From: Trichinella spiralis
Lineage: Eukaryota > Nematoda > Enoplea > Trichinellida > Trichinellidae
Length of the DNA stretch: 64,000 nt
Reading direction: 5' to 3'
Assembly: GCA_000181795.3 (NCBI GenBank)
Contig: CM012953.1
Coordinates: forward strand, 15,262,664-15,326,663
The first letter of the stretch is position 1; each line of letters opens with the position of its first letter. Both the position numbers and the translations under genes were made by a program. Positions 5,001 to 41,200 of this stretch are shown here, in pieces. The notes beneath the pieces are model-generated. The model was not told where the DNA came from. It searched no databases and worked only from the letters and a program-made list of their open reading frames with translations.

Positions 5001-6700
5001 TTTCAATTTAAAGAATCCGTTAGAGCCCGTTTATCCGTTTGAATTTTTTAAATAGATTTAAATGAAGATTATAGCAGAACAATAAAATTAATGTACACGA
5101 CATTTCGATGATGCAAGCGGGTGATGAATGTGGAATACAAATTGCACATATTTATTAAAAAGAGTTTATACGACAATTACATTAATGCTATTTATTTATT
5201 ATTAATAAGTGATAAATAAATGAGCAGTTGTTGAAACCAAGACGTCATTTGTCATTGCTGCAAATGATTCATTTGAATAAATATTAATTAGCAATATTTT
5301 ACATGGAAAAAGCATGCAGGTTGGTTTTCTTTTTCTTTTTTTACAATAATAGACTGCACATATTTTAAAGTACTTCTTTATTCTGTTGACCATTATCTCA
5401 TCAGACAATAATACTTTTTGTTTCTTTTTTATTTGAAAGCTTATTAATGAGCAATGGCAAAATTATTCAAGCTGAATTCATCTGCAATCTATTTACAAAA
5501 GGAACTCATTTAATACATTTTTTATTATTTCTTAAAAATTGAAATTTGAATTCACTTTTTGTAATAAATCATGAATAAAAAAGCTTGTTAAAGTTAATAA
5601 ACAGATAATCATCCAGCAAAATGTGGATATATTTTTAAATGCATAATATGCTGAAAAAGCAATTATTTTATAAATTATTGCTATTATTGCTTTATTCCAA
5701 ACAATGAGAAGCTTAAATTCACAGTAATAATGGTAAGAAATTTTAGTTTTAGAAAGAAATGTTAATTTTCAATGGTGAATAGAATTAATTCGACAGCAAT
5801 TATATTTTTGCAGAAAATACAAAATATGTTTAATTTATCACAAGTTAGAAGAATATATTTTATAAAACTTTCTTTATTGTTTAATCTTTTCAAAGGTCAC
5901 TTTCTGCTAGTTATTATTATTATTATTTTAGCAAAAGGATTATAAAAATGCTTTCTTATTAAAGGAGAAAGAAATTAATGAAAAAATTAACATCCTAAAG
6001 GCATGCTTATAGTGTAAAATTTCCTTTTTCATTTGATATCCTTTATATGGGTCTATTAATGAAAAGAAAGCAACATTTTTACATTAAAATTTTCAAATCA
6101 CAATTGAACATATTAAATGAACTATAATTCAATAATTTTGCAAGAAATTTTCCTTCCATCCAGTCGCATTCCAATTGACAATCACTCGAAAATTTGACAA
6201 CAACAAAAATTTACTTTTGCAAAGTTGAAAAATTCATTTTACCACATCCACATCAATAAAGTATGTAGCATAAAAATATTTCAAAGTCAGTATTATCCAT
6301 ATTTATAATATTGAATATTTTTTGCTGTTTGAATGCAAAGCAACAGAATGTGAAGTGCTTTGTCAGGGTCACTTCCTATTCAAGATAAGAGGGACAATTC
6401 TTTTCTTTCTAACTAATTTCCTCTTTTTTTGTCGTAAAGCAATTTCATTTTATTGAAGCAGAAAAAACTGACGTGAAAGTTTGTCGATGACCAAGTAAAA
6501 AAATCTATTTCTAAAGAAGCAATTGTGAAGGCAATCAAAAAATTAGTCAGAAAATTGTTTAATGTTTTCTGCATATGTTTTAAAGTTTATTAAAGCTTAT
6601 TCCAGGATATAATTAAAATCTATTCTATTTTGCATATGTTCTTATGGTTGTTCTTTTTTCTTGATTATTAATATTTTTATTATTTTCAATTTAAGATCAA
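2061..6700. other. intergenic AT-rich DNA, no gene seen
   Basis: About 4.6 kb between gamma-tubulin and the neuropeptide gene. Open frames are short, rich in Lys/Asn/Ile/Phe and lack family features. It holds an (ATT)n run near 3579-3599, an (AAT)n run near 4911-4935, and one inverted repeat at 4869-4969. The stretch 3180-3420 is slightly less AT-rich but has no convincing coding frame. Confidence 0.7.
4869..4969. repeat. 11-bp perfect inverted repeat with ~80-base loop
   Basis: ACGTATACTGT at 4869-4879 is exactly complementary to ACAGTATACGT at 4959-4969. The interior is AT-rich and contains an (AAT)n run. A second weaker pairing (TCTATTTTTAA with the complement of the stretch near 4938-4956) could extend the stem. 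The outer stem resembles the ends of the arthropod iab-4 microRNA hairpin, but the loop is too large for a normal pre-miRNA. Confidence 0.45.
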
Positions 6701-6802
6701 TTGTTATTCAAGCAAGCAAGCAGTGAACGCCACCAAACTGAAGTCAGCTTTGAATTTCTGCATCAATTTTACAAATTGACGAATCAACGTCCGCACGCTA
6801 CA

Positions 6803-6846
6803 CCAATGATTGGCAAGCTGCCCTCAGAGCCATCGGTATATATAAC
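6803..6846 (+). promoter_or_regulatory. CCAAT/TATA promoter of the neuropeptide gene
   Basis: CCAATGATTGG at 6803-6813 carries CCAAT on both strands. A TATA box, TATATATAAC, follows at 6837-6846 with the usual spacing. Transcription would start near 6865-6875, about 75 bases before the ATG at 6945. The surrounding 6700-6940 is less AT-rich than its flanks. It contains an 80-codon open frame that stops just before the ATG, which I read as promoter and leader rather than as an exon. Confidence 0.6.
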
Positions 6847-6944
6847 TGTTGAACTTGATGAACAATGGGTGGTTTTATCCTTGGAAAGCTTTTTGCCCAT
6901 TCAATTTGAAAATTCCACATTTTCATTCTTGAACAATTGAAAGC

Positions 6945-9900
6945 ATGAATATGAAAAGTTGCATGATGTCAGCAACACGCTTCGCATTTTGCTTCGTCCT
7001 GGTGCATCTAGTGCAGCAGAGTTTTGCATATTCCATTTCACAAGCGGTTGAAGGTGGTACTGTTGGAAAAACGTCCACTGCAGATCGTACAGCCGGATCA
7101 GTGGGCCTGAACCATCAAGCGTACAATCTTTTGGTCGACATTTATTCCACACTGATGGACACTACTATGAAAATTGAAAATCTCTTTCAAACTGTCGCTT
7201 TTGCCAGACCCATCGGCAAGACAAGTAAGTGCATATCAATCAGCGTTTTCTTTTATTTGAAAAATTTTAAACTAACCAATCACAAAATCAAATATGCAAA
7301 AAGGACACTTTACAACAAATTATAACACTGCAATGTTTAAATATTTTCATATCACACCAGAGCATATGCTTCTACGTGGTAAAAAAATTGCAAAAAAACC
7401 AATAGAACATGAAAAAGAACATTTGACAGCTGGGATCATTATCCTTTATCATTACATAACAAACTTTACAAAATATTTAAGAAACCGATGCATTGAATAA
7501 TAAGTGAATGTTTACAATAGAAATCATTAGATATTAAATTGTTTCTATTTGAATGATTAGATACTCACAGATTTGATCATTTTATTCAACCTAGTTTATA
7601 GCTGAATCTATGACAGATTAATTTTCTATGCATAACATTCTGCTCACAAATTCGTAAATTAAATATTTCACAGTATACATTTTGAGAAAATGTTCAAACA
7701 AAAGCGAATAAAAATAATAAAAGAGAGACAAATTAAACATAATGATTTAATTCAAAAAAAGATTTTATTTTTACAAGAAGAAATAAAAAAATAAAAACTT
7801 TTGATAGAAAATAAGAATTTCACTGACAAATGAATGATATGCAGAAAATTTTACAGAATTGCATAAATTCAATAATGCAGCATTCGTATTATAAAATAGC
7901 TTTTTTATTATTTAAATATTAATCTATGCCGACGTCAATTAATTTATCAACTGAAAAGTTCATTAAAAAACATTAAATATATTCATTTTGTATTACATAT
8001 TAACAAATATGAATAAATAATTGACGGCTGGATTGATAAAATTTAATTATTTATGAAATCATTTTGGAATATTAAAAGGATTCTGCATTGTTTAAAAGAG
8101 AAACATGCGTATGTTTCAGTTGAATGATCATTAAAAGAAAAAAAGATGCTTTTAATTGCAATAGTCCACTATAGAAATAAATACTGTTGATTGGGCAAAT
8201 TTGTTAAAATTGATTTTGCTTTATTTATTTATATTTAATTTGGAAAAGAATTCCTCATGAGTTTATTTATCTTGCTTTTCTTTCTTAAATATAATCAGCA
8301 ATTATCTGACCATTGATCTAATTAGCTGTATGGCAGATCGGGTTAACTGTGCGCAATTTATTCTGTTTGCACATTTTTATTTGAATGAAAGAAAAAACAT
8401 GATATTCAGATAACTTTACATTACATTTGAATATTTTGCAGCAATTGCATTGCAATTATAAATTTAAATTTTACTCTAATTGTGTATGCAAAGTTTGAAT
8501 TTTAACGTTCTTCATTATTTATAATGAAATTTGTTACAAATGTATTCATTTTTCATTTATCTTCACTTTCAAAGTAATTTAATTTCTCAAAAAAACTTCC
8601 GATAAAAAAGCAATTTCTTTCTTGGTTTTACAATTTTTTAATGTTGAAATCAATCAAACAATTCAATATCTTCATTTATTATTAAAAAATATCAAATGAC
8701 AGATGATGTTTGCTTTCATGGCAAAAGTTTTAATTGCAATTTCTGTGAAAAATATTATTCGAAAATACAATAGAAGGATATTGATTCAAATTGGTAGTTG
8801 TCATTGGAAAATTTTACTATCCCACGACAGTATCCATTGTTTAGAAAGATTTTACTCATTCTGAAGCAATTCTATTTGATTGAATAAAATTCATGTTCGC
8901 AAATGTTGTTCGTAAATATGAAGGTACATAAAAATTTTACATTCGTGATTTTATTGTTCGATGAATTGGCACCGCACAATGAATGGCCAACATTATCAAG
9001 TATCGATGGTAGCACATTGTCTTGAAATCGATATTTATTTGTAATGATTCTATAAACTGAAATTGAATAATAATTATAGAGGAGTGGTTCACATTCAACG
9101 GGCCTGTTCAGTGGCATTTAAATTAACTTTTTCCATTACGGTCACCAATTTAGCACTGCTTTTCTCAGACCTCTTGAACTTTACAAGATTCAATTTCCGA
9201 TCGCGTTAATTTCTCGATTAGTTTCAGTATTTACTTTCATAAACTATTTATTGATTGCAAAACTGATACTGCTTTCGAAACTGCTAATACACACGAATGT
9301 TTGTCTTTCTTTTTTTTCATTTTATCTCATCTCCTGACATCATCCAAACTATCATTTTTTCTTATGTAAAAATATCAACGCCTAAAAAAGCAGTGATATG
9401 TATACGATGAATTTGTAAAAATAAAATCGTTTTTCACGAAACCCAAGAGGTTGGCTGTTCAATCAACTGAGCATAGTAATGGATTTCATTTTCTACTACT
9501 CCAACTAACACGCTTCACCAATGTGGGAATTGAAAAAAAACAACTAACAACATTGCGTGCTTGAAAATTTCATCTCATGACAACAACATATTGTCTTTTT
9601 TTCCCACTCTTGACAGACATGGCATTGCATGACACGCTATTTTATAAATTATAATAAAAACTGCTCAAGATGAGAAAATGTCGTCATTTGCATTTCGATT
9701 AACTGCCATCTACACAGTTAAAATATTTCTACTAACTGTTTATCAATTTAAATCACTAATCAAACCTGATATTCACAAACTACAGTACGTAATTTATGTG
9801 ACTAAAAAGTCATTGTAAAAATTCTCAAATGGATTATAAACATAGCAAACATAATTAAGAATAAAATATTTTTTACTTTAATCAAATCATATAAATTCAG

Positions 9901-10066
9901 ATTTGAATAATAATGATAAATAATTAACCGCCATCAAAGATAAATGTAAATTTCTTAAATTTTACCGGCAGTAAAAGCAAATTTTCTCTTTTCAGATTCC
10001 ATTGGCGATGGAAAAGACAAAAGATACGATTTGAACAGTTGGGAATTTATGCGTTTTGGAAAATGA
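6945..10066 (+). CDS. flp-12: FMRFamide-like neuropeptide precursor (FLP-12-like), 116 aa
   Basis: Exons 6945-7224 and 9996-10066 join in phase 1 (donor A|GTAAGT, acceptor TTTTCAG). Exon 1 begins with a signal peptide: a short Lys-containing start, the hydrophobic stretch FAFCFVLVHLV, and likely cleavage after QQSFA near residue 28. A 75-residue spacer with no dibasic sites follows. Exon 2 supplies GKDKR, then YDLNSWEFMRF, then Gly-Lys and stop. Cleavage after the Lys-Arg pair and conversion of Gly to an amide would give one 11-residue peptide ending EFMRF-NH2. Nematode FLP-12 precursors also carry a single C-terminal copy, and their core N-x-aromatic-EF-[IM]-RFG matches here; the orthology is inferred. 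It should be secreted and act on a G-protein-coupled receptor. The family is clear; the exact FLP assignment is less so. Confidence 0.78.
7225..9995 (+). other. 2.8 kb intron of the neuropeptide gene
   Basis: AT-rich sequence between the two precursor exons. A more complex stretch at about 8830-9220 contains no exon that would join in phase, and I saw no further RFG-encoding segment in it. Confidence 0.65.
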
Positions 10067-10809
10067 CCATTAAAATCATACCAGTAGTTAACCAACTGTT
10101 TTCACTGCTTTTCAAATTACAACATAAGTGCATCAAATCAAAAATTCCCTTTCTGTAGTTTCCCATGATTGAGCATGTCAATTAAATTACATTTAATATA
10201 TGCATAAGCATCTAAAATAATGCGTACACGCATATATACATATACATAAATATATTGCACATATACTTTTCTTATATTCCAAAATTACAAATACATATGA
10301 TTGAAATTAATTGCTTATTCTTCCAGATTAACTTTCAAATTTGAATTACAGTAAAGATCGATAATGTAAAATCTGCTTCCAAATAAAGGTGACAAAAAAT
10401 TACTTTTTTCTTTTTCGAATTACTTATTATACTATTTTATGTTGTAAAAATTACATTTATGAATGAAATTCTATAAAGCATCACATATTTTCAATGTTTA
10501 AAAAATATGTTCACTATATACAGTCTAAGTTTTCTTAATAAAAAAAACAGACCATAAAAAATAAAAATTTTAATAAAACACGCCACAATAACATAACTAT
10601 AAAAAAACATACACATTAAAAAACCACTACATAAAAATTTTCCACTAGAGCATTATATAAAACACCTAAAAACGACGTTAAATAATGACTATTAGTAAAT
10701 GTTTTCCCCAAAACCATAAAATACTTTTGAGGTAAATAATGTAAATAAATCGAAATTATTTAAATAGAAACTTATAAATGAAACGGTTATAAAAGTTTCC
10801 ATCAGTCAG
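10067..10809. other. gap between convergent neuropeptide and NASP genes
   Basis: AT-rich 3' flanks of two genes that converge. Nothing coding is visible. Confidence 0.7.
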
Positions 10810-19015: not shown

Positions 19016-19274
19016 TTCTGTTCTGGAGTCAGAATTGTCATCACATTTGACCAATGAGAACAAGTGGAACTTGTTCCGCACCAATCAAAAAACGAACAAA
19101 CGGCCTGTCGTTTCCGCGATTGCCCAGCAAAATTGGTTTTCTTCAAGAATTTGCAAAGGCATCATAAATTTCCAACCGCGGCTGGTCATTCGGTAATGTG
19201 TGTTACTGCGGGGGTGAACAAGGCATAAATTGCTGCTTGTAGTCTCGTGATAAATCAATTTTTATGGCAATTTG
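19016..19274 (+). promoter_or_regulatory. promoter and leader of the Hox4-class gene
   Basis: The last 260 bases before the ATG are less AT-rich than the upstream DNA. They hold two CCAAT motifs (GACCAATGAG and CACCAATCAA), a weak TATA-like GCATAAATTG, and TGATAAATCA at 19248-19257. The last combines TGATAAAT with TGATTTAT on the other strand, the form bound by Exd/PBX-Hox dimers. A separate ATG at 19264 opens only a three-codon frame. Confidence 0.5.
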
Positions 19275-22200
19275 ATGAATCCACTGATTGCGACCGCAAA
19301 TCAGATGTTGGATCCAAAACTGTCCTTGCAAGACCATAGCAATGGCAGTTACAATGCTGACACAGGTTCCACCTATTTGTCACCAGCAGCAATAAGAAGT
19401 TCAACTTCAATTACCTCCCAAGCTTCGACTACGCCAACATCCGGTGAAGTTCTTTACAGACAGTTGTACAGTCAACCGTCATATCTAAGGTATCAACAAC
19501 CGGCTAATGATCTTGTCTCAGCTTTCAACTTTCACAGTCAACTGTCATCAGAAAGCGGTTTATCAACAAGACGAGATGCTACGGCTGAACTGCTAAACGC
19601 AACTGCGTCGTGCCAATTTCTGGGTCCATCATTTTTCAGTCCTGCTTTAGTAATGGGATTTAGTCAACCGTCCGTAGTGGATGACGCTGTTCGATCCACT
19701 AGCGGATCGCTTCGTCCGGATGCCCAAAAAATCTCCATAAAACGTGAAGATGCGCCTAAAGATGTGCTGAATGCCGAACGGACAGTCAAAGCGGCTTATG
19801 ATCAAGAATGGTCGTCAGTGTGCCCTAGTACGGCACCGGCCACCTCTCAGCCTTCGGCTTCTTCCTCTTCTGCATTTGCCGTCGAAACAAGCAAAACATC
19901 CGGAAGCTGCTCAGAGGAGTCGAATGATGAAAATGAAGCTTCTGATTCAGGTCTACGATCGTCATCATCTCCTCTACCTGAGGCGCATTCTGGACTGAGC
20001 CAGCCATCCGCTCAAATTTATCCGTGGATGAAGCGTTTTCATTCAAACAAAGGTAAAAATATTGCGCAATTCGGGCAAACGCTTTTTCAAATGTCTTCTT
20101 TTCAACACACCTGTCTATCATTTGTCATTGTTTATCAGCGCGCACTTTTGTGCAAACAAACAGACAATTTTCGGTTTTTATCATGTTAGCAATATCAACA
20201 ACAAAAGTAGGAAGTTACTGAGCTTTGTTCAATTTTCACCGCTTTCCTCCTTTACAAAATTATATAATCCACATATATTTGAGAAAACATAAATTTACTT
20301 AATCCATCACAATAGCACAAATTGCACCCTCGATTTGTATAAAATGCAAAGCATTCTTTTCATTGTCTGCTGCTGCTGCTCTACATTAATTATTACTGTA
20401 CACAACAGAAGTGTTTAAGAAATTTAACAGATAAGAAACACAAAAATTTATTTTCATTTCCGCATGTACGTAGTGCAATTATTCATGTACTTAAGAGGAT
20501 GACAAGACTATATTTTTGTAAAAACTATTAATTTTTCAATCAAATTATGCTTTTCATTGCATTTTAATGAGAATTTACATTTGATATGTCTATTTTTACA
20601 AATGTGATTATATAAAAACTTACTGAAATCAACAGTAAATTAAGTAAACGGTTTATCTATCAGTTGCAGTAATGCAATAATAATTAATTATTACTAGATG
20701 CAGTTTTTAAAAACGGTTTATTTGATGTTTTTTATGAATCCAAATAGGCAACCCAAATTAATTTGTTTGAATGTGAAGAGAAAAGTGATTTTAAACAGTG
20801 TATCAAGAAAGGCGCATTGACGAAACTGACCCAGTACATGAAAATCAGTCAAGTTATAAGTTTTTATGACAGCAAGCAGACTGATGCGAAATATTTTTTC
20901 AATTGACTTTTAATCGTTTTTATTACTTTGATGAAGATAAATAATTTTTGCAATTTTTAAAATAAATAAATCAATTATTTATATTTTTAATTCAAAAAAA
21001 CGCCAAAAATTAATTATTAGTTTTATAATTTTTGATGAACATACTTTGTTGTATATTATATATATGTACTGCAGTATTTGCATAAATTGATATGTGCAAT
21101 TTGTATTTGCATTACTTGCATGCTGAGAATGTTTTCCAGTTTTACTACCAAATAGATGTTTATAACATGTTCAATAAAGTGTTTTACTAATAATTAATAA
21201 ATTTAAGACCATTATCAATAAGTAGTATGTAAAAGTGGAGAAATGTTTATATACATATTTTTAAATACACCGGAAGTTGTTGCAGGCTGAAATTTTCAAC
21301 AAATAATGCCAGTTTAAACTTCTCTACTTGATCTATGAGTTTTTTTGCTACCAAAAATCAGTGAAATGTCACATTTTTTAAATCTGAGCAATCAGTCAAC
21401 TTTTTTTTATATTTGCCGCTGCGAAGCTTAATTTTCCCCTTTTCAATTAAAAATAAGTTCAGCTTGGAACAGTTTGAAAATAACATCCAAGTAATATTTA
21501 TTATAACTTAAACATCTGTTATTTGCAAATTTTATTAAATGCGTATGCTTTAAAGAGATGCTTCAAACAAGGGAATGCATATTTATAGATATGTAATAGC
21601 AATTAATTTAAATTATGAAAAAAGAATAAAAGTTAAAATGATGTTGAATTATTTTGCAACTGCTGCATACCATTGACTTCACATTCGCTTGAAATTTTTC
21701 ATTTCTTTAAAAACTTTTTTCATATGAAAATTTTAATTAAGTATCAAATTTGTATATTAATTTCTTATTATATTATAAATTTACATTGCTTTATAATGAA
21801 ATGCATTCATTTATGAAAAACTGCAAATTTTCATAGTTTTGTGTCAAACATTTGGTTGAATCATCACCAGCGAGAAAGAGTATTAAAATAACATTAATAT
21901 TGCATTTTTAATTGTCAGTTTGTTTGTTTGTTTTTCTAAGCAATATTGCAACAAAATATGCAGATTTATTATTCTAAAAATATGAATCAGTCATGAAATC
22001 AGCATGGTAAAAAGTGATTATAAAAAGTTTAGACAAATTATAGCAATGATTAATTGTTGCCGAATTGGTTTAAATTGTAGCTAAATTCAAAGTGTGATTG
22101 ATTAAAAGACAATTCGGCTAGTTTTCATGCATTCCTATAAAGAAATTTTTCAAGGTCGAATTAGAAAAGCTGATATCTGCAGACTCATAAATTTTCCATG

Positions 22201-25005
22201 TCATTGAAGCAAATTTAAAAATTTTGCAACATTTCAATTGTTTTTCAAAATTAATTGTGCTTATTTGGGCAAAATTATTTGAAATGCTTCTGAAATAGTA
22301 CATTTAAAATAATGGAATAATTTAATTTTCCAAAACAGAAAAACATTCATATTAATAGTTAAAATGCACCGAATTATTTTTTCCTGTATATCTTCTGATT
22401 TACTAAAGGATACATTTAGCTTTTTTTAAATAAATGATTTAATTTGCATAAAAATGAAAATGTAGTCCAATGTTTAAAATTATCATATTCATATGTGTGT
22501 ATTAGAAATTTTTCACTAGTGCTTTGAAAATATATAGTTCGAGTAGAAAATTTATTGTGATGGATTAGACATGTCTGCTGTTCTTAAATCACATTTGTCA
22601 AAAACAACCCATTTACCCACTGCGCTTTAGTAAAATAGACAGACGGCACTTTTGCTGCATTTTCAATGCACATATTTAAAAAGTTTTCTTTTTTATTTAG
22701 AAAGAAATAGAGCTAGCAGTTCTGTTTTATATTGTATGAACACGTCATACAAAATGCAAATAAGGAACTGTTCGGTTTGAACAATGAAAGCTATCAATTA
22801 GCTATTAAAAAGTGAAAATGTAAAAATTCAATGGCATCTTTTTTAATTTATTAAAAAATTTATTTCTCTAATAATTGATACTAATTTTGCAATAAGCGGT
22901 AATGTTATAATTTAAATTTATGCTTCAGTATGTATAACATGAATTACTGTTGTTGTTTTTAATAAAATCCCAAGTTTTCAATTGAGAATTAGCTCAATTT
23001 ACACTGCAAGATGCAAAATTTTGCATTTTTAAATCAAACGCAAATTTTCTTGTTGCAAAAGAATTTCATAATTAATTTTCCATCTTTATTATTGCACTGT
23101 ATGTTTACAAATGAACTATACCAGTTTTTTTGATAATTCATTTGAAAGAATGTTAAATTTAAAAAATTGTCAATTTTTTTATATTAAACTAATAAATCCT
23201 CACGTTTTACCGCTTTCAAGCATGTAAATCAGGTTTTGTAGTGCTGTGGTAAATTTTTGTCCTTTCTGTTTTCTTACATAGCAAATCAAAAGAGCTTTCT
23301 TTTCAGCAAAATTAAATTGTGAGCAAGCTTTGCTACGCAAAATTGGTATTTAATTTTTTTAATTAAATTTAAATTTAAGAAAATTTTTTAATATTCGATA
23401 CTGTTTTTTTTCTTTGTAAAAGTGTTCTTAAGTTGTTATGAAAGTATTAAAATTAATAATTTAATTGTATATAATAGTTTAAATGGAAATGATTTTTTGA
23501 ATAAGTTTTGGAAAATTTCTGATTTGTTAATAATTTCATGATAACACGTTTGTGTGTGTGTGTGCGTGAATCGATCTATTTTTCTTTTGTTTCATCATAA
23601 AGAGCCGTTTTTAACAGCAGCAAGTGGGGTAGAATTTTTCCAAAAGGCGGCAGCTTCTTTGCTAAAACGTTTATCAACAATTTCTTTAGCTTCAGCTAAC
23701 TAGCTGTAGCCGTGTGTCCATTTGTCATCTGGCATCAATGACTGATGGCCCAGAACGTTTGCATAAAACGCGAACGCGTTTTTGTCGCAGTTTGATTGAT
23801 TTAATTCGCATTCGCTTTTCAAAAGCTGAACACCACAAGGCTCGCCACGTTGACATTTTTAATATGTTTGCTTTGTTTTGTCGACTTCAAGCACGGCAAC
23901 TAAAAAAGAGCGGCTTCTGTTTCAAATAAGCTAATTCAAAATTAACTAGCAAAATCAACCACAACCGTGTGTGTGTGTGTGTGGTGCATCTCTTTTGACG
24001 TAAACAAATGAAAACATTTTGAAAAAATTTTCAAAATTCACATCTTAATTTTATTCAATAAAACCATTCAAATTCCACTATACACAATTACATTCTTATT
24101 GTTCTATCAATTAGTTATTTCTCTAGTCGTTCTCACTGTTTTTCAATGAATACTTGAACCTGAAAGTCATTTAATTTTATTTTATTTTAAATATACTTCT
24201 AATGGTGATTAATAATTTGAAAAGAAATTACAAACTTACAAATCGAATTTGTCCAATTTTACAATCCGTTTTCAATTGAAGTTATAATTAAATTTTCACA
24301 GAAAAATCTGTTGAAATTTATACCATTTTTTAATTTTAATTTATTGCTGATAATTATAATTTTATCTGAAAAACTTTCTGAAGCATAAATTTAAACTTAA
24401 TTTTCACAATTTATGATTTACGACAACAAACCCGCAAATTTTTAACTGTAATGAAAATGACAATCAGGTTCAAATGTTATATAGCTAACAATTCATGATT
24501 GAATTCAATTGAGTCATCATTTAGATTGTTTTTATTTGTTTTATTGTAATTTCAAAGATAATTCTGTATTGAAAAAATCAATTATTTTCTTTTCTTAAAT
24601 TTAGTCAATGGTTCAACGGACGGAAAGCGTCAGAGGACAGCTTACACACGTAGCCAAGTGCTAGAACTGGAAAAAGAGTTTCATTTCAACCGCTATTTGA
24701 CCCGTCGTCGACGTGTTGAAATTGCGCACACTTTAGATTTAACAGAACGTCAAGTTAAAATTTGGTTCCAAAATCGCCGCATGAAGCTCAAAAAAGATCA
24801 AAAAACTTTACAACCATCTGCGTTCAGCTCTGCTGCCATAAGCAGCATCATCAATCCGTTGCAGATGAACCATCTAACCGCGGCAGCAATGCATGGAACG
24901 AGGCCAGGCGCCAGTTATTTGTTCAACGTACCCTATGACATGCAAGGAAGTTTAAACTCCAATTGCCCTGGTGCGCAAGGTCCAAAAATTTTTTTACAAG
25001 ACTGA
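19275..25005 (+). CDS. lin-39: Hox4/Dfd-class homeodomain protein (lin-39-like), 392 aa
   Basis: A Hox transcription factor that specifies mid-anterior body identity. Exon 1 (19275-20052) ends just after the PBX/Exd-binding hexapeptide IYPWMKRFH. Exon 2 (24605-25005) starts with a 6-residue linker and then the homeodomain (24622-24801). Hox4/Dfd signatures are [36 protein letters not shown] and the KKDQK end, plus YPWMK-[RKF]-H in the hexapeptide. Recognition helix [10 protein letters not shown] is intact with Gln50 and Asn51. Residue 56 is Leu where Hox4 proteins have Trp. The N-terminal half is Ser/Thr/Gln-rich, with an acidic serine stretch before the hexapeptide, and looks disordered. The start is the first ATG of the long open frame. 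The 4.55 kb intron sits between hexapeptide and homeodomain, the usual Hox position. In nematodes this class is lin-39. The class is firm; the symbol assumes a nematode. Confidence 0.96.
23600..23950. promoter_or_regulatory. candidate intronic Hox enhancer
   Basis: An abrupt rise in GC and complexity inside the Hox4-class intron, with no sustained coding frame. It contains TGATTGATTTAATT at 23793-23806, an Exd/Hox-type TGATTGAT joined to a homeodomain TAAT core, and the palindrome GCGAACGCGTT near 23771. Autoregulatory introns are common in Dfd and lin-39; function here is inferred. Confidence 0.4.
23967..23983. repeat. (GT)n microsatellite
   Basis: Eight GT units just after the intronic island; a shorter GT run lies near 23550-23566. 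Confidence 0.9.
24622..24801 (+). other. homeobox of the Hox4-class gene
   Basis: Sixty codons starting [10 protein letters not shown] and ending MKLKKDQ, wholly within exon 2. Gln50 and Asn51 are present; position 56 is Leu. Confidence 0.97.
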
Positions 25006-29890: not shown

Positions 29891-30835
29891 TCAATCTCCA
29901 TCAGAATTTGGTTTACACACAGTAGCATCAATTTGAGTAACCTGTGGTAAAGCGAGCATCACTTTGCGTCGGTAATTAACGTCCCTATGATCAAAGTTGT
30001 TTTCTTCAAAATAAACAGTTCTCAAACTTGGGCAGTTGGCTAAAATGGATACTTTTTCAACACTGTCCAATTTGTTTTTATTAAACCAAAGTTCTTCCAA
30101 ATTCGTCAAATATGACAAATCGCACAATTCTTTTATATTGTTTCCACTCACATCTAAAGTACGCAACTGTGTGCATTTCTCTAAACCTTCGATGACACTT
30201 ATTCCATTGTCACTTATGTAAAATTCTTGGAGATTAACACAGTTATCTAAATTTTCAATTTTCTTAATCCAGTTACATTGAATGCTCAGCAACTTCAGAT
30301 TAACAAGTGAATCCAAATTCTCAATTTTCGTCAACTTATTCGATCCAACAAAAAGATAATTCAAATTTACAAGAGAATTCAAATTTTCCAACTTGCGAAT
30401 TTTGTTGTCTCCCAGTTCAAGCGACTTCAAATTGACGAGCGTGTCCAAATTTTCAATCTTCTCAATGCGATTGTGAATCAGGAAAAGATGTTTCAAATTT
30501 GTGAGTGCAGCCAAATTTTCAATTTTTCGAATACGGTTGAAAGACAAATCTAAAGCTTCAAGCATGGCGAGCTCTTCTAAATTTTCAATCTTTGGAATCT
30601 GATTGTTGTACAAATCCAATTCAACGAGTGTATTTCGAAGGCAGCTTAAGTTTTCAATTTTCGTCAACAAATTGTTCCGGTAAGATAAAGTTCGTAATTG
30701 TTTGAATCGGCTCAAATTGCCAATCTTCTTGATTCGATCGAATTCAAAATTCAAATCCGTTTCATCTTCGGGAATATCTTCACATTCTTCAGGAACCACT
30801 TCAGATACTGCGCCTTCTTCTACCGAGTTGTTCAT
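29891..30835 (-). CDS. PPP1R7: protein phosphatase 1 regulatory subunit 7 (SDS22), 314 aa, intronless
   Basis: SDS22 binds the PP1 catalytic subunit, acts in its assembly and activation, and is needed in mitosis. An acidic N-terminus (about residues 1-25) precedes roughly eleven tandem 22-residue SDS22-type leucine-rich repeats. The repeats read L-x-x-L-x-L-x-x-N-x-[IL]-x-K-I-E-N-L, for example LEALDLSFNRIRKIENL and LKHLFLIHNRIEKIENL. An LRR cap follows (YRRKVMLALPQVTQIDAT). Length is close to the yeast (338) and human (360) proteins. The whole reading frame is one exon, unlike every other confident gene here. It lies head-to-head with ASPP, another PP1 regulator, 1.87 kb between ATGs. The start is the first ATG of the frame and suits the family N-terminus. 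The identity is certain. Confidence 0.97.
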   Translation of the reverse strand: MNNSVEEGAVSEVVPEECEDIPEDETDLNFEFDRIKKIGNLSRFKQLRTLSYRNNLLTKIENLSCLRNTLVELDLYNNQIPKIENLEELAMLEALDLSFNRIRKIENLAALTNLKHLFLIHNRIEKIENLDTLVNLKSLELGDNKIRKLENLNSLVNLNYLFVGSNKLTKIENLDSLVNLKLLSIQCNWIKKIENLDNCVNLQEFYISDNGISVIEGLEKCTQLRTLDVSGNNIKELCDLSYLTNLEELWFNKNKLDSVEKVSILANCPSLRTVYFEENNFDHRDVNYRRKVMLALPQVTQIDATVCKPNSDGD

Positions 30836-38200: not shown

Positions 38201-41200
38201 GCCAAACGTGCCGAGATAAGTTTGTACGACAGCGAAATTGGCGATCTCAGTTGTGCGTTGTCATTGCCGACCACCGGGTCGGGGTCGGGCGCCGATCCGG
38301 GTCCAAGTCCAGGTCCAGGTTCAGGTCCCGATGGACAGTCGAGCAGCAAGCTTTCGGTCGGCTCGGAGTGTAGCAGAGTGCAAGGGTCGAGGCCGAAGGC
38401 GGCGGTGGAGCCGTTCAAAATCGACACGCCCGACCAGGACGTCGAGTGTTGTTCGACCGAAGAGGCGGCGGCCGAAAGCGGGTCGAAGTTGGACCAGTAC
38501 GTGCGGTCGAAAGGGTTCCGGACCGCGTTCTTCGCCATGCAGCGGGCGTTGGTCGAAGACGCCGCCGGCGACGGGCGATCCGTGGAATTGCCGTCGGATT
38601 CCGACGACCACGACGTTGTTGTGGTCGACGGCGGTCAGCCACCGCCCTCCGCTGGTCCAACCGAGCCGTTGGTGAAATTTCTCCACGGCAACGGCAACGC
38701 CAGTAGACGGTCGAACGTGCGGTCCGAATTGGCCGATTCCAGCCAATCGCCGCCGCCCGACCTGATCCCCGCCAGCGAGAAGAGCAAATTTTTGGGCCAG
38801 GGGGCGCTGGCGTCGGCATCGGATGCGGCACTGGGCGATATTGTCAAAGCCGAAACCGACAAGATCCATCTGCGCAGCGATACGCTCAGGGCGGCAAAAC
38901 GGCGCTCCTGGGCCGAACACCACGCCAATTTGGCCACGAGTGACGAAACCGAGCACATTCGGCTTCTTCTGTGCCGTGAATTGAAAAAAGGCAAAACGTC
39001 CGTCAATTTGTCTTGGATATTGGACCAGCTGGATTCGGTGGGTGCTGCGACGACTTCGACTTCGACTTCCACAACCAATGCGGTACCATTTGTAGCAGCA
39101 TTGATTAGAATTTAAATTTAAGAATATAATTTGAACAATTTTTTTTTGTTTTCCAGTTGTTGTCGGAACCGATGCGGTCGTCGTTGTCACCATCCGATGA
39201 GCATCTGAACTATTGCCGGGCCAAAGTGACGTCGTCGACTACCAACAATGACGATGATACTAAGCTGACGTTGGATTCGTTGACAGCAGTGTGTTGTCCG
39301 CAAATTTCGGACAAATTGTTGTGTGATTTGGTGGAGATTGAAAAAAATGGAAAAGACGACAAAGTGGAAGTGAAAGAACAACTGCTTGAACAACAACCAC
39401 AAGAAAATGATGATGATGACGATGGTGGTAAAGAAGAAGAACATGAACGCGAAGAAATTACAATAGTAGTAGTGGACGAAGAAGGGCCAGAAGTTGAACG
39501 ACGACAACGCAGTGGAAGTGGAACGACGTCGACTAACAGGAGAGAAGCGGAACCGAAACCCAGGAGAGGCATTCTGCAGGGTACGTCTGCACGTTGTGGC
39601 GACGGCCCTGTCCGACCCAGGGGTGTCCACTTCGATCCGTTGGCTTTGCTGTTGGACGCGGCATTGGAAGGCGAACTGGACCTGGTCAAACGTTGTTCCA
39701 AACAACTGCCCAACGTCAGCGTCTGCTACGAAGAAGGGATCACGGCGTTGCACAACGCCATTTGCGCCGGTCACTACGACATTGTGCGATTTTTGGTGGA
39801 AGCCGGTGCCGACGTGAATGCCCAAGATTCGGACGGATGGTATGTGGGGGAAAAGTGGTTTGGTGTGATTTTCAATTAATAAATAATAATAATATGTGAT
39901 CTTTTTTTTCTTAGGACCCCGCTGCATTGTGCCGCTTCGTGCAACAATTTGCCCATTGTGAAATTTTTGGTCGAAAACGGCGCCTGCATATTCGCGTCGA
40001 CTCTGAGCGACGAAGAAACGCCGGCGGCGAAATGCGAAGAAAACGAAGAAGGTTTTGTCGGATGTTCGCAATTTTTGCTCGGCTTACAACAGCGCATGGG
40101 AACGATGAACGGCGGCATTGTATACGCCGCTTACTCGTACGATCCCGAACGGGACGACGAGCTCGGCTTTGAAAAAGACGATCAACTTCGAGTGTTGGCC
40201 AAAGATTTGGACGGTTTTGGTGGCTGGTGGCGAGCTTTCGATCCCAAATCCGGGCGTGAAGGTTACGTGCCGAGAAATTATTTATCCGTAAGTTTTTTTT
40301 TTTTTCAAAAGTTGAAAAAAAAAAGTTCAAAAAGAGATAAATCACTGATGAAATTGCATGCAAACTTGTTGAAGAAGAAGTACTTGTTCTTCTTTTTTTG
40401 TCTGCTTTTCGATATTACAAACAAGCCAGTTCTGATGTAAGCAGCAGTGCTCTTTTTGGCAATTGTGTCTGTCTGTTTGTCCAATGAACAACGTTAAATA
40501 GAATACATTTTTGTATGGTTATGTTTTTTTTGCCCCTTCTTTCTCGCAGTGCAGCTTTTGTTTGTTCCCTTTTGTGCTTCCACATCTCTATTGTGTTGTT
40601 CACATTTTGTGAATATATCAGAGACGAATTAATTCTTCTTTATATGTATATATGTATAATTTTCCTCCTTCTACTATAGAACAGAGAGATTATTCGACTA
40701 GATAGATGAAACGAGTTTCGTTTCGTTTCAATTTGTGAAAAGCAATTTTTCACATAAATTAACTATAATTTAAACTTTATTTTTTTTGTTTTGCTACAGT
40801 TTTTCAGAAAATTGTATTACTGCTAGGGTTTTATATATGATATGCATCATCGGGTGGATTGTGATCGAATGGTGGGGTTGGAGAGTTTTAAGTATTAAAT
40901 CTTGCGTGCATGTGTGCAAAAATACTGCCAGTTGGTAGGATTGCTGCTGGTGGTAATGATGATGATTATTTTATTATTAACGCGCACATGTGTTGCTTTT
41001 GCTGTCGGGCAGGCAGGATTTTGATTGCTTTTTAGCATGACGAAAAAGCAACAACCACAACTGTTCCTTCGGATTTTAGTGCTTCTTTAATTTTATTTTT
41101 TTCTCCATGAAGCTAACGTCACATGGAATCTTTTTCTAGTTGACTACCTGAATCCGAATCTGAGTCTGAAATTGAAAAGTGTCAGTTGTTTCAATATATT

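Follow-up and report, generated by a model that had tools for sequence, protein, structure and literature searches.

A Two-Exon FLP-Type Gene of Trichinella spiralis Predicted to Release a Single EFMRF-amide Peptide

The Locus and Its Genomic Surroundings

The window (the whole stretch of Trichinella spiralis DNA that was analysed, 64 kb in length) contains a two-exon gene that is flanked by tubulin-family exons on one side and by several homeobox exons (PF00046) on the other, and that shows no sign of belonging to either. The neighbouring exons are as follows.

11-304 and 1183-1416, + strand: tubulin-family exons (Pfam PF00091 and PF03953, respectively)
19272-20189, + strand: homeobox gene exon, without Pfam match
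24658-25005, + strand: homeobox gene exon, PF00046
45246-45710, - strand: homeobox gene exon, PF00046
51159-51970, - strand: homeobox gene exon, without Pfam match

The tubulin-family exons are presumably those of gamma-tubulin. The homeobox exons, which we take to be of the Antp class, lie on both strands and are probably part of a Trichinella Hox cluster; a YPWM motif was noted in the exon at 19272-20189. An intronless leucine-rich repeat protein, presumably sds22-like, is encoded between the homeobox exons at 29891-30835 (- strand; LRR_4, E 2.5e-39), and ankyrin repeats followed by an SH3-like stretch are encoded at 39157-40440 (+ strand), in what we assume to be an ASPP-like protein. The Rfam scan of the 64-kb window gave no matches. 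SL1 RNA (RF00198, and the 22-base SL1 with at most one mismatch) had no match in the T. spiralis genome, a result that is uninformative since the RF00198 control was found in 0 of 14 genomes.

Gene Structure and Predicted Precursor

The features of the gene are listed below; P0001 and P0002 are the deposited proteins of T. britovi and T. pseudospiralis described in the next section.

6837..6842, + strand: TATA-box-like element (putative function), about 100 bases 5' of the start codon and the sole TATAWA match in 6601-6945
6945..7224, + strand: exon 1, 280 nt, with the start codon, signal peptide and the greater part of the propeptide; it covers residues 1-93 plus base 1 of codon 94 and matches P0001 and P0002
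6945..7028, + strand: predicted signal peptide, residues 1-28, with the cut after QSFA placed by eye
7225..9995, + strand: intron, 2771 nt, GTAAGTGC...ATTTTCTCTTTTCAG, with a GTAAGT donor and a TTTTCAG acceptor
9996..10066, + strand: exon 2, 71 nt with the stop codon, comprising the end of the propeptide, KR site, peptide, Gly-Lys and stop
10019..10024, + strand: predicted Lys-Arg cleavage site, residues 102-103, from sequence
10025..10057, + strand: residues 104-114, predicted as the mature amidated peptide YDLNSWEFMRF, the same in the T. spiralis window, P0001 and P0002
10058..10066, + strand: Gly as the predicted amide donor, a Lys expected to be trimmed, and the TGA stop codon, from sequence
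10382..10387, + strand: candidate polyadenylation signal AATAAA, with ATTAAA at 10069 and 10181 as alternatives

Joined in frame (280 + 71 nt), the two exons translate into a precursor of 116 aa that ends in GKDKR-YDLNSWEFMRF-GK-stop. The preliminary description of this DNA had given the two exons, their coordinates and phase, the 71-base second exon, the consensus splice sites and this precursor end, all of them correctly. Within 6401-10400 of the + strand, GTAAGT occurs once (7225) and YYYTTTCAG once (9987-9995), both at the sites of the proposed intron, and both motifs having been picked after the splice sites were seen. The N-terminus has the character of a signal peptide: the most hydrophobic 11-residue stretch, FAFCFVLVHLV at residues 13-23, has a Kyte-Doolittle mean of 2.7, and small residues precede the presumed cut. 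The C-terminus is that of an flp precursor, with an RFG flanked by basic sites on either side (KR-YDLNSWEFMRF-GK-stop), and the precursor holds a single, C-terminal RFamide copy and one KR site.

Across all six frames, the window has a single match to a strict precursor-end motif (a dibasic site, 3-14 residues, [FY][ILMV]RFG, 0-3 K/R and a stop), and 60 order-1 Markov simulations of 64 kb had none. A looser motif (a dibasic site, 1-16 residues, RFG, 0-3 K/R and a stop) likewise has one match in the window, where the simulations averaged 0.17. No Pfam family scored above its cut-off for the 116-aa precursor; FARP (PF01581) reached 13.9 bits against a cut-off of 15.5 (E 0.082), in what is a low-power test, as the FLP-12 precursor P0003 discussed below is also without any Pfam match. 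At the level of sequence, the earlier proposal is supported that two exons encode an RFamide precursor having one peptide copy, a signal peptide, a KR site and an amidation Gly, and we put the probability that this is a two-part Trichinella gene of flp type, which through predicted splicing and processing would most likely release YDLNSWEFMRF-amide, at about 0.87.

Conservation in Other Trichinella Species

A search with the spliced 116-aa protein against 5.8 billion proteins yielded three candidates, the third of which was above E 10; the two matches, P0001 (T. britovi) and P0002 (T. pseudospiralis), are both from Trichinella. P0001, deposited as 'hypothetical protein T03_2256' and belonging to a cluster of 10 sequences, is the product of the same gene: it has 116 aa, is 97% identical and differs from the T. 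spiralis precursor at 4 of 116 residues, all between 13 and 50 (13, 18, 39 and 50). P0002 is 89% identical, and just one (S95F) of its 12 differences over 109 residues lies beyond residue 74. The last 21 residues, from 96 to the end, are invariant in the T. spiralis window, P0001 and P0002, and the peptide YDLNSWEFMRF is therefore the same in 3 of 3 Trichinella proteins, which fits the strongest constraint being on the peptide end. Both deposited proteins run the exon 1 product straight into the exon 2 product across the junction; they are gene predictions, possibly from one pipeline, so that they support the junction at the level of predicted proteins. Because P0001 and P0002 carry the same spliced product, the gene is regarded as real and conserved, and this is the decisive support. 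The label given to P0002 by its source, 'ASTRA-associated protein', found no support in the analysis and is probably a naming error.

The preliminary description had considered the gene hidden. With its product already on deposit as T03_2256, under no functional or otherwise fitting name, the gene is unnamed and not hidden. A search of the T. spiralis genome with the last 42 residues of the precursor gave two matches, both to its own exons (exon 2 alone, E 1.0e-9, six-frame), and no second gene copy was found by this search. The precursor had no tblastn match in phages, as expected.

RFamide Genes in the T. spiralis Genome and in Published Surveys

Trichinella falls in Dorylaimia. In PMC4058706 the flp genes of T. 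spiralis are flp-1, flp-8, flp-14 and flp-18, with four genes likewise in T. muris, and the flp-12 row contains neither species. PMC4405611 gives a complement of 13% for both T. spiralis and T. muris; novel flp genes were outside the aim of that study, and a search with degenerate strings was tried on T. muris. PMC11658156 counts 3.9 +/- 0.3 flp genes per clade 2 species on average and proposes that the ancestral set included at least flp-1, flp-8, flp-14 and flp-18; Trichinella is not named in the main text of that survey. With T. spiralis gene names assigned by peptide motif, the four listed genes were found at the following loci.

flp-1, C2:4484 kb: at least six copies, a NFLRFG-like run with mostly NFLRF ends
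flp-8, C1:13297547, - strand: IKRKNEFVRFG-stop
flp-14, C1:12984.4 kb: three copies with [E/D]YLRF ends
flp-18-like, C1:1192.2 kb: APGLMRFG twice, fitting the published FLP-18 consensus

An FLP-18 peptide query on the T. spiralis genome led to the flp-1 locus and to the APGLMRFG locus at C1:1192.2 kb. The possibility that the window gene is the T. spiralis flp-8 or flp-18 of the survey was ruled out, as each of these has a separate locus of its own. Since flp-1, flp-8, flp-14 and flp-18 are all found elsewhere, the window gene would be a fifth flp gene of Trichinella, one that appears unlisted in the surveys: it was not found in text passages and tables of PMC4058706, PMC4405611 and PMC11658156, whose supplementary files may hold it. 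In the literature, the strings YDLNSWEFMRF, NSWEFMRF and WEFMRF were not found, and only T032256 was matched, among the matches listed; where text matches to 'EFMRF' were read in context, they were parts of names (eFMRF, DmeFMRFaR and CimleFMRFamide), the others being judged by title and the start of the abstract.

The genome scan (53.1 Mb, 14 contigs) places this gene among the RFG-encoding sequences of the genome. Two patterns representing [FY]-x-[RS]-F-G-[KR] at the DNA level occurred at 59 and 35 places, against 49 and 31 for the reversed-pattern controls, and such scans may miss RFamide genes in which an intron interrupts the motif, no F/Y precedes it or no K/R follows the Gly. After exclusion of 46 of the 94 places, whose codons put Ser at the Arg position or Phe at the I/L/M/V position, 48 encode [FY][ILMV]RFG[KR], the window gene among them. 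The other 47 were examined as 41 stretches, among them the flp-14 and flp-1 loci; eight of the 41 have a dibasic site at most 14 residues upstream; none of the 41 has the dibasic site, motif, K/R and stop as combined in the window gene. The narrower E-F-x-[RS]-F-G pattern occurred at 8 places genome-wide (reversed control, 4), and only in the window gene and flp-8 was a dibasic site present within 14 residues upstream. The RFG patterns exceed the reversed controls by a modest margin, so that the motif by itself is no proof, and context and conservation carry the case.

Relationship to Known FLP Families

The predicted peptides of T. spiralis FLP-14, FLP-18 and FLP-1 likewise lie between basic sites as RFamides. 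However, these genes have three, two and at least six copies, respectively, against one in the window gene, and their ends ([E/D]YLRF in FLP-14, APGLMRF in FLP-18 and mostly NFLRF in FLP-1) differ from EFMRF. The FLP-14 pattern (KH[E/D][Y/F]xRFG, usually repeated) was not found in the window peptide, and neither was the FLP-18 end ([P/Q/A][G/Q/D/A]-[V/M/F/L]-[V/M/F/L]-RF), the F-M-R-F being preceded by W-E. FLP-8 (KNEF[I/V]RF-amide) shares the E-F-x-R-F-G end after a dibasic site; SWEFMRFG does not fit KNEF[I/V]RFG, and the Trichinella flp-8 exon, KRKNEFVRFG-stop, has no residue after the Gly and no aromatic residue before the Glu, unlike the window gene.

The closest likeness is with FLP-12. 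When the peptide was scored (BLOSUM62) against 31 nematode FLP motif sets, with flp-33 left out, FLP-12 was the best match over the last 6, 8 and 9 residues, with scores of 24, 30 and 28; the runners-up were FLP-25 (22), FLP-25 (22) and FLP-34 (23), and FLP-8 and three others reached 19 over eight residues. The FLP-12 precursors, with one copy of (K)[R/K/N]NKFEFIRF-amide, and the Trichinella precursor have in common the C-terminal position of the copy after a basic site and the N-x-[aromatic]-E-F-[I/M]-R-F-G core, and a single C-terminal peptide, as in FLP-12, is what the Trichinella gene encodes. In comparison with FLP-12, however, the core has S for K, W for F and M for I, leaving NSWEFMRF identical to NKFEFIRF at 5 of 8 residues (N, E, F, R and F), and the peptide has the N-terminal extension YDL. 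The W/F and M/I changes are conservative.

Among 212 candidates for a query built from three FLP-12 tails, a single match reached E <= 10, the protein P0003 (E 2.8), from a JGI metagenome (longest contig, 1542 bases). It has a signal-peptide-like start, carries KRRNKFEFIRFGRR and contains KRRNKFEFIRFGRRRR followed by an unrelated tail; we regard it as an FLP-12 precursor in the metagenome, presumably of a nematode. Comparison with FLP-12 precursors therefore means comparison with this one metagenome reference. Against P0003, the Trichinella propeptide scored 18, under the shuffle mean of 21, with 410 of 500 shuffles as good; with the peptide included, the alignment scored 38, which 2 of 500 shuffles equalled or bettered, and this score came entirely from 10 residues of the peptide end. 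In P0003 a single open frame covers both signal peptide and peptide; the Trichinella gene has an intron 9 residues before the peptide. Both precursors have a signal peptide and a predicted helix ahead of the peptide: AlphaFold, at low confidence (block-mean pLDDT 42-66; overall means 48.1 for P0001 and 49.9 for P0003), places a helix between the signal peptide and the basic site at residues 45-87 of P0001 and 50-74 of P0003. A conserved helical stretch of the propeptide has been described for FLP-12 (PMC11658156). A chimera query, in which the precursor was given the canonical FLP-12 tail, returned the two Trichinella proteins as 2 of 2 candidates.

The preliminary description had called the peptide FLP-12-like and had proposed comparing the 116-aa protein with nematode FLP precursors. 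The likeness holds for the peptide, with FLP-12 the best of 31 motif sets, and falls short of supporting an FLP-12 identity for the gene, as the core departs from that of FLP-12 at 3 of 8 residues and the propeptide is dissimilar to P0003; the protein search, for its part, brought two Trichinella matches. Because the conserved core was not found and the propeptide failed the comparison with its one reference sequence, the gene is not filed as FLP-12. By analogy, it would work like FLP-12, and FLP-12 orthology is possible.

Origin of the Gene

An origin within the lineage has, in our estimate, about an even chance. The gene would then be specific to Trichinella or its order, either as an old duplicate of flp-8/12 or flp-8/flp-14 type or as a gene lost elsewhere, and its likeness to FLP-12 would be convergent. 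Such an origin is consistent with the separate presence of flp-1, flp-8, flp-14 and flp-18, with a propeptide that lacks similarity to FLP-12 (P0003) and with two deposited relatives that are both from Trichinella, and convergence between FLP motifs, together with a grouping of FLP-8 with FLP-12, has been reported (PMC11658156). However, FLP-12 clearly tops the other 30 motif sets over eight residues (30 against 22), and the search reached only close relatives, with three candidates, so that absence outside Trichinella says little.

The gene could also be a true flp-12 orthologue kept in Trichinella, with the peptide diverged to SWEFMRF from KFEFIRF, which we hold to be possible and short of even odds. 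The best motif match points in this direction, as does the helix predicted at low confidence in both P0001 and P0003. The single C-terminal copy agrees with PMC11658156, in which flp-12 is among the single-peptide genes and has one peptide in every species that bears it. The lone other EFIRFG of the T. spiralis genome (L106) has no dibasic site upstream and is followed by Cys. Against orthology stand the change of 3 of 8 core residues in a family whose motif PMC11658156 counts as one of 17 highly conserved FLP motifs, the propeptide alignment to P0003 below its shuffle mean, the intron between signal peptide and peptide where P0003 has one open frame, and the absence of flp-12 from the T. spiralis and T. 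muris lists of PMC4058706. The compound claim of an unlisted fifth flp gene in Trichinella that is a diverged flp-12 is more tentative still.

A real gene that is not a neuropeptide precursor, with an incidental RFG-K end, is improbable: the single KR site and the lack of a Pfam family above cut-off would suit it, but the signal peptide, KR, RFG-K and stop occur in combination, the end is the same in all three species although other parts of the precursor vary, and the strict motif is absent from all 60 simulated windows. That exon 1 is real and exon 2, fitting by chance, lies in no transcript is scarcely credible, as proteins from other species fuse exon 2 to exon 1 with an identical C-terminus.

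Proposed Processing and Significance

Read as an flp-type neuropeptide gene, the locus would be spliced in vivo, presumably in neurons, into an mRNA for a secreted precursor of 116 aa. The precursor would lose its signal peptide and enter dense-core vesicles, where a convertase would cut at Lys-Arg, a carboxypeptidase would trim the final Lys and the exposed Gly would be converted to the C-terminal amide, to give one peptide, YDLNSWEFMRF-amide, that may act on an RFamide-type G-protein coupled receptor. These processing steps are those of established neuropeptide biology.

A conserved fifth gene would make the published four-gene count for Trichinella (2014 survey) incomplete. The figure of about four genes per clade 2 species in the 2024 survey underlies the inferred minimum ancestral set. 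The predicted YDLNSWEFMRF-amide offers a concrete ligand for receptor matching in a parasite of humans and animals, and surveys could seek single-copy RFamide genes with short exons as a remedy.

Further RFamide-Like Sequences in the Genome

Three other places in the T. spiralis genome drew attention during the scans. At C2:5808853 (- strand; L077), an open frame reads RK-YELVDVIFHFLRF-GKR, a basic-flanked FLRFG that has no known flp arrangement and may be due to chance. At C3:9558035-9558150 (- strand; L107/L108), two tandem copies 99 bases apart end in ...ISNFEFLRFG; in one copy a stop comes next and a lone Arg lies upstream. There is no dibasic site, and the pair is probably a tandem repeat and not a peptide gene. 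In the flp-8 region (C1:13294500-13304400, - strand; L111), a signal-peptide-like frame with cysteines lies upstream, and FVRFGR is encoded some 110 bases ahead of the KNEFVRFG-stop exon, in a different frame.
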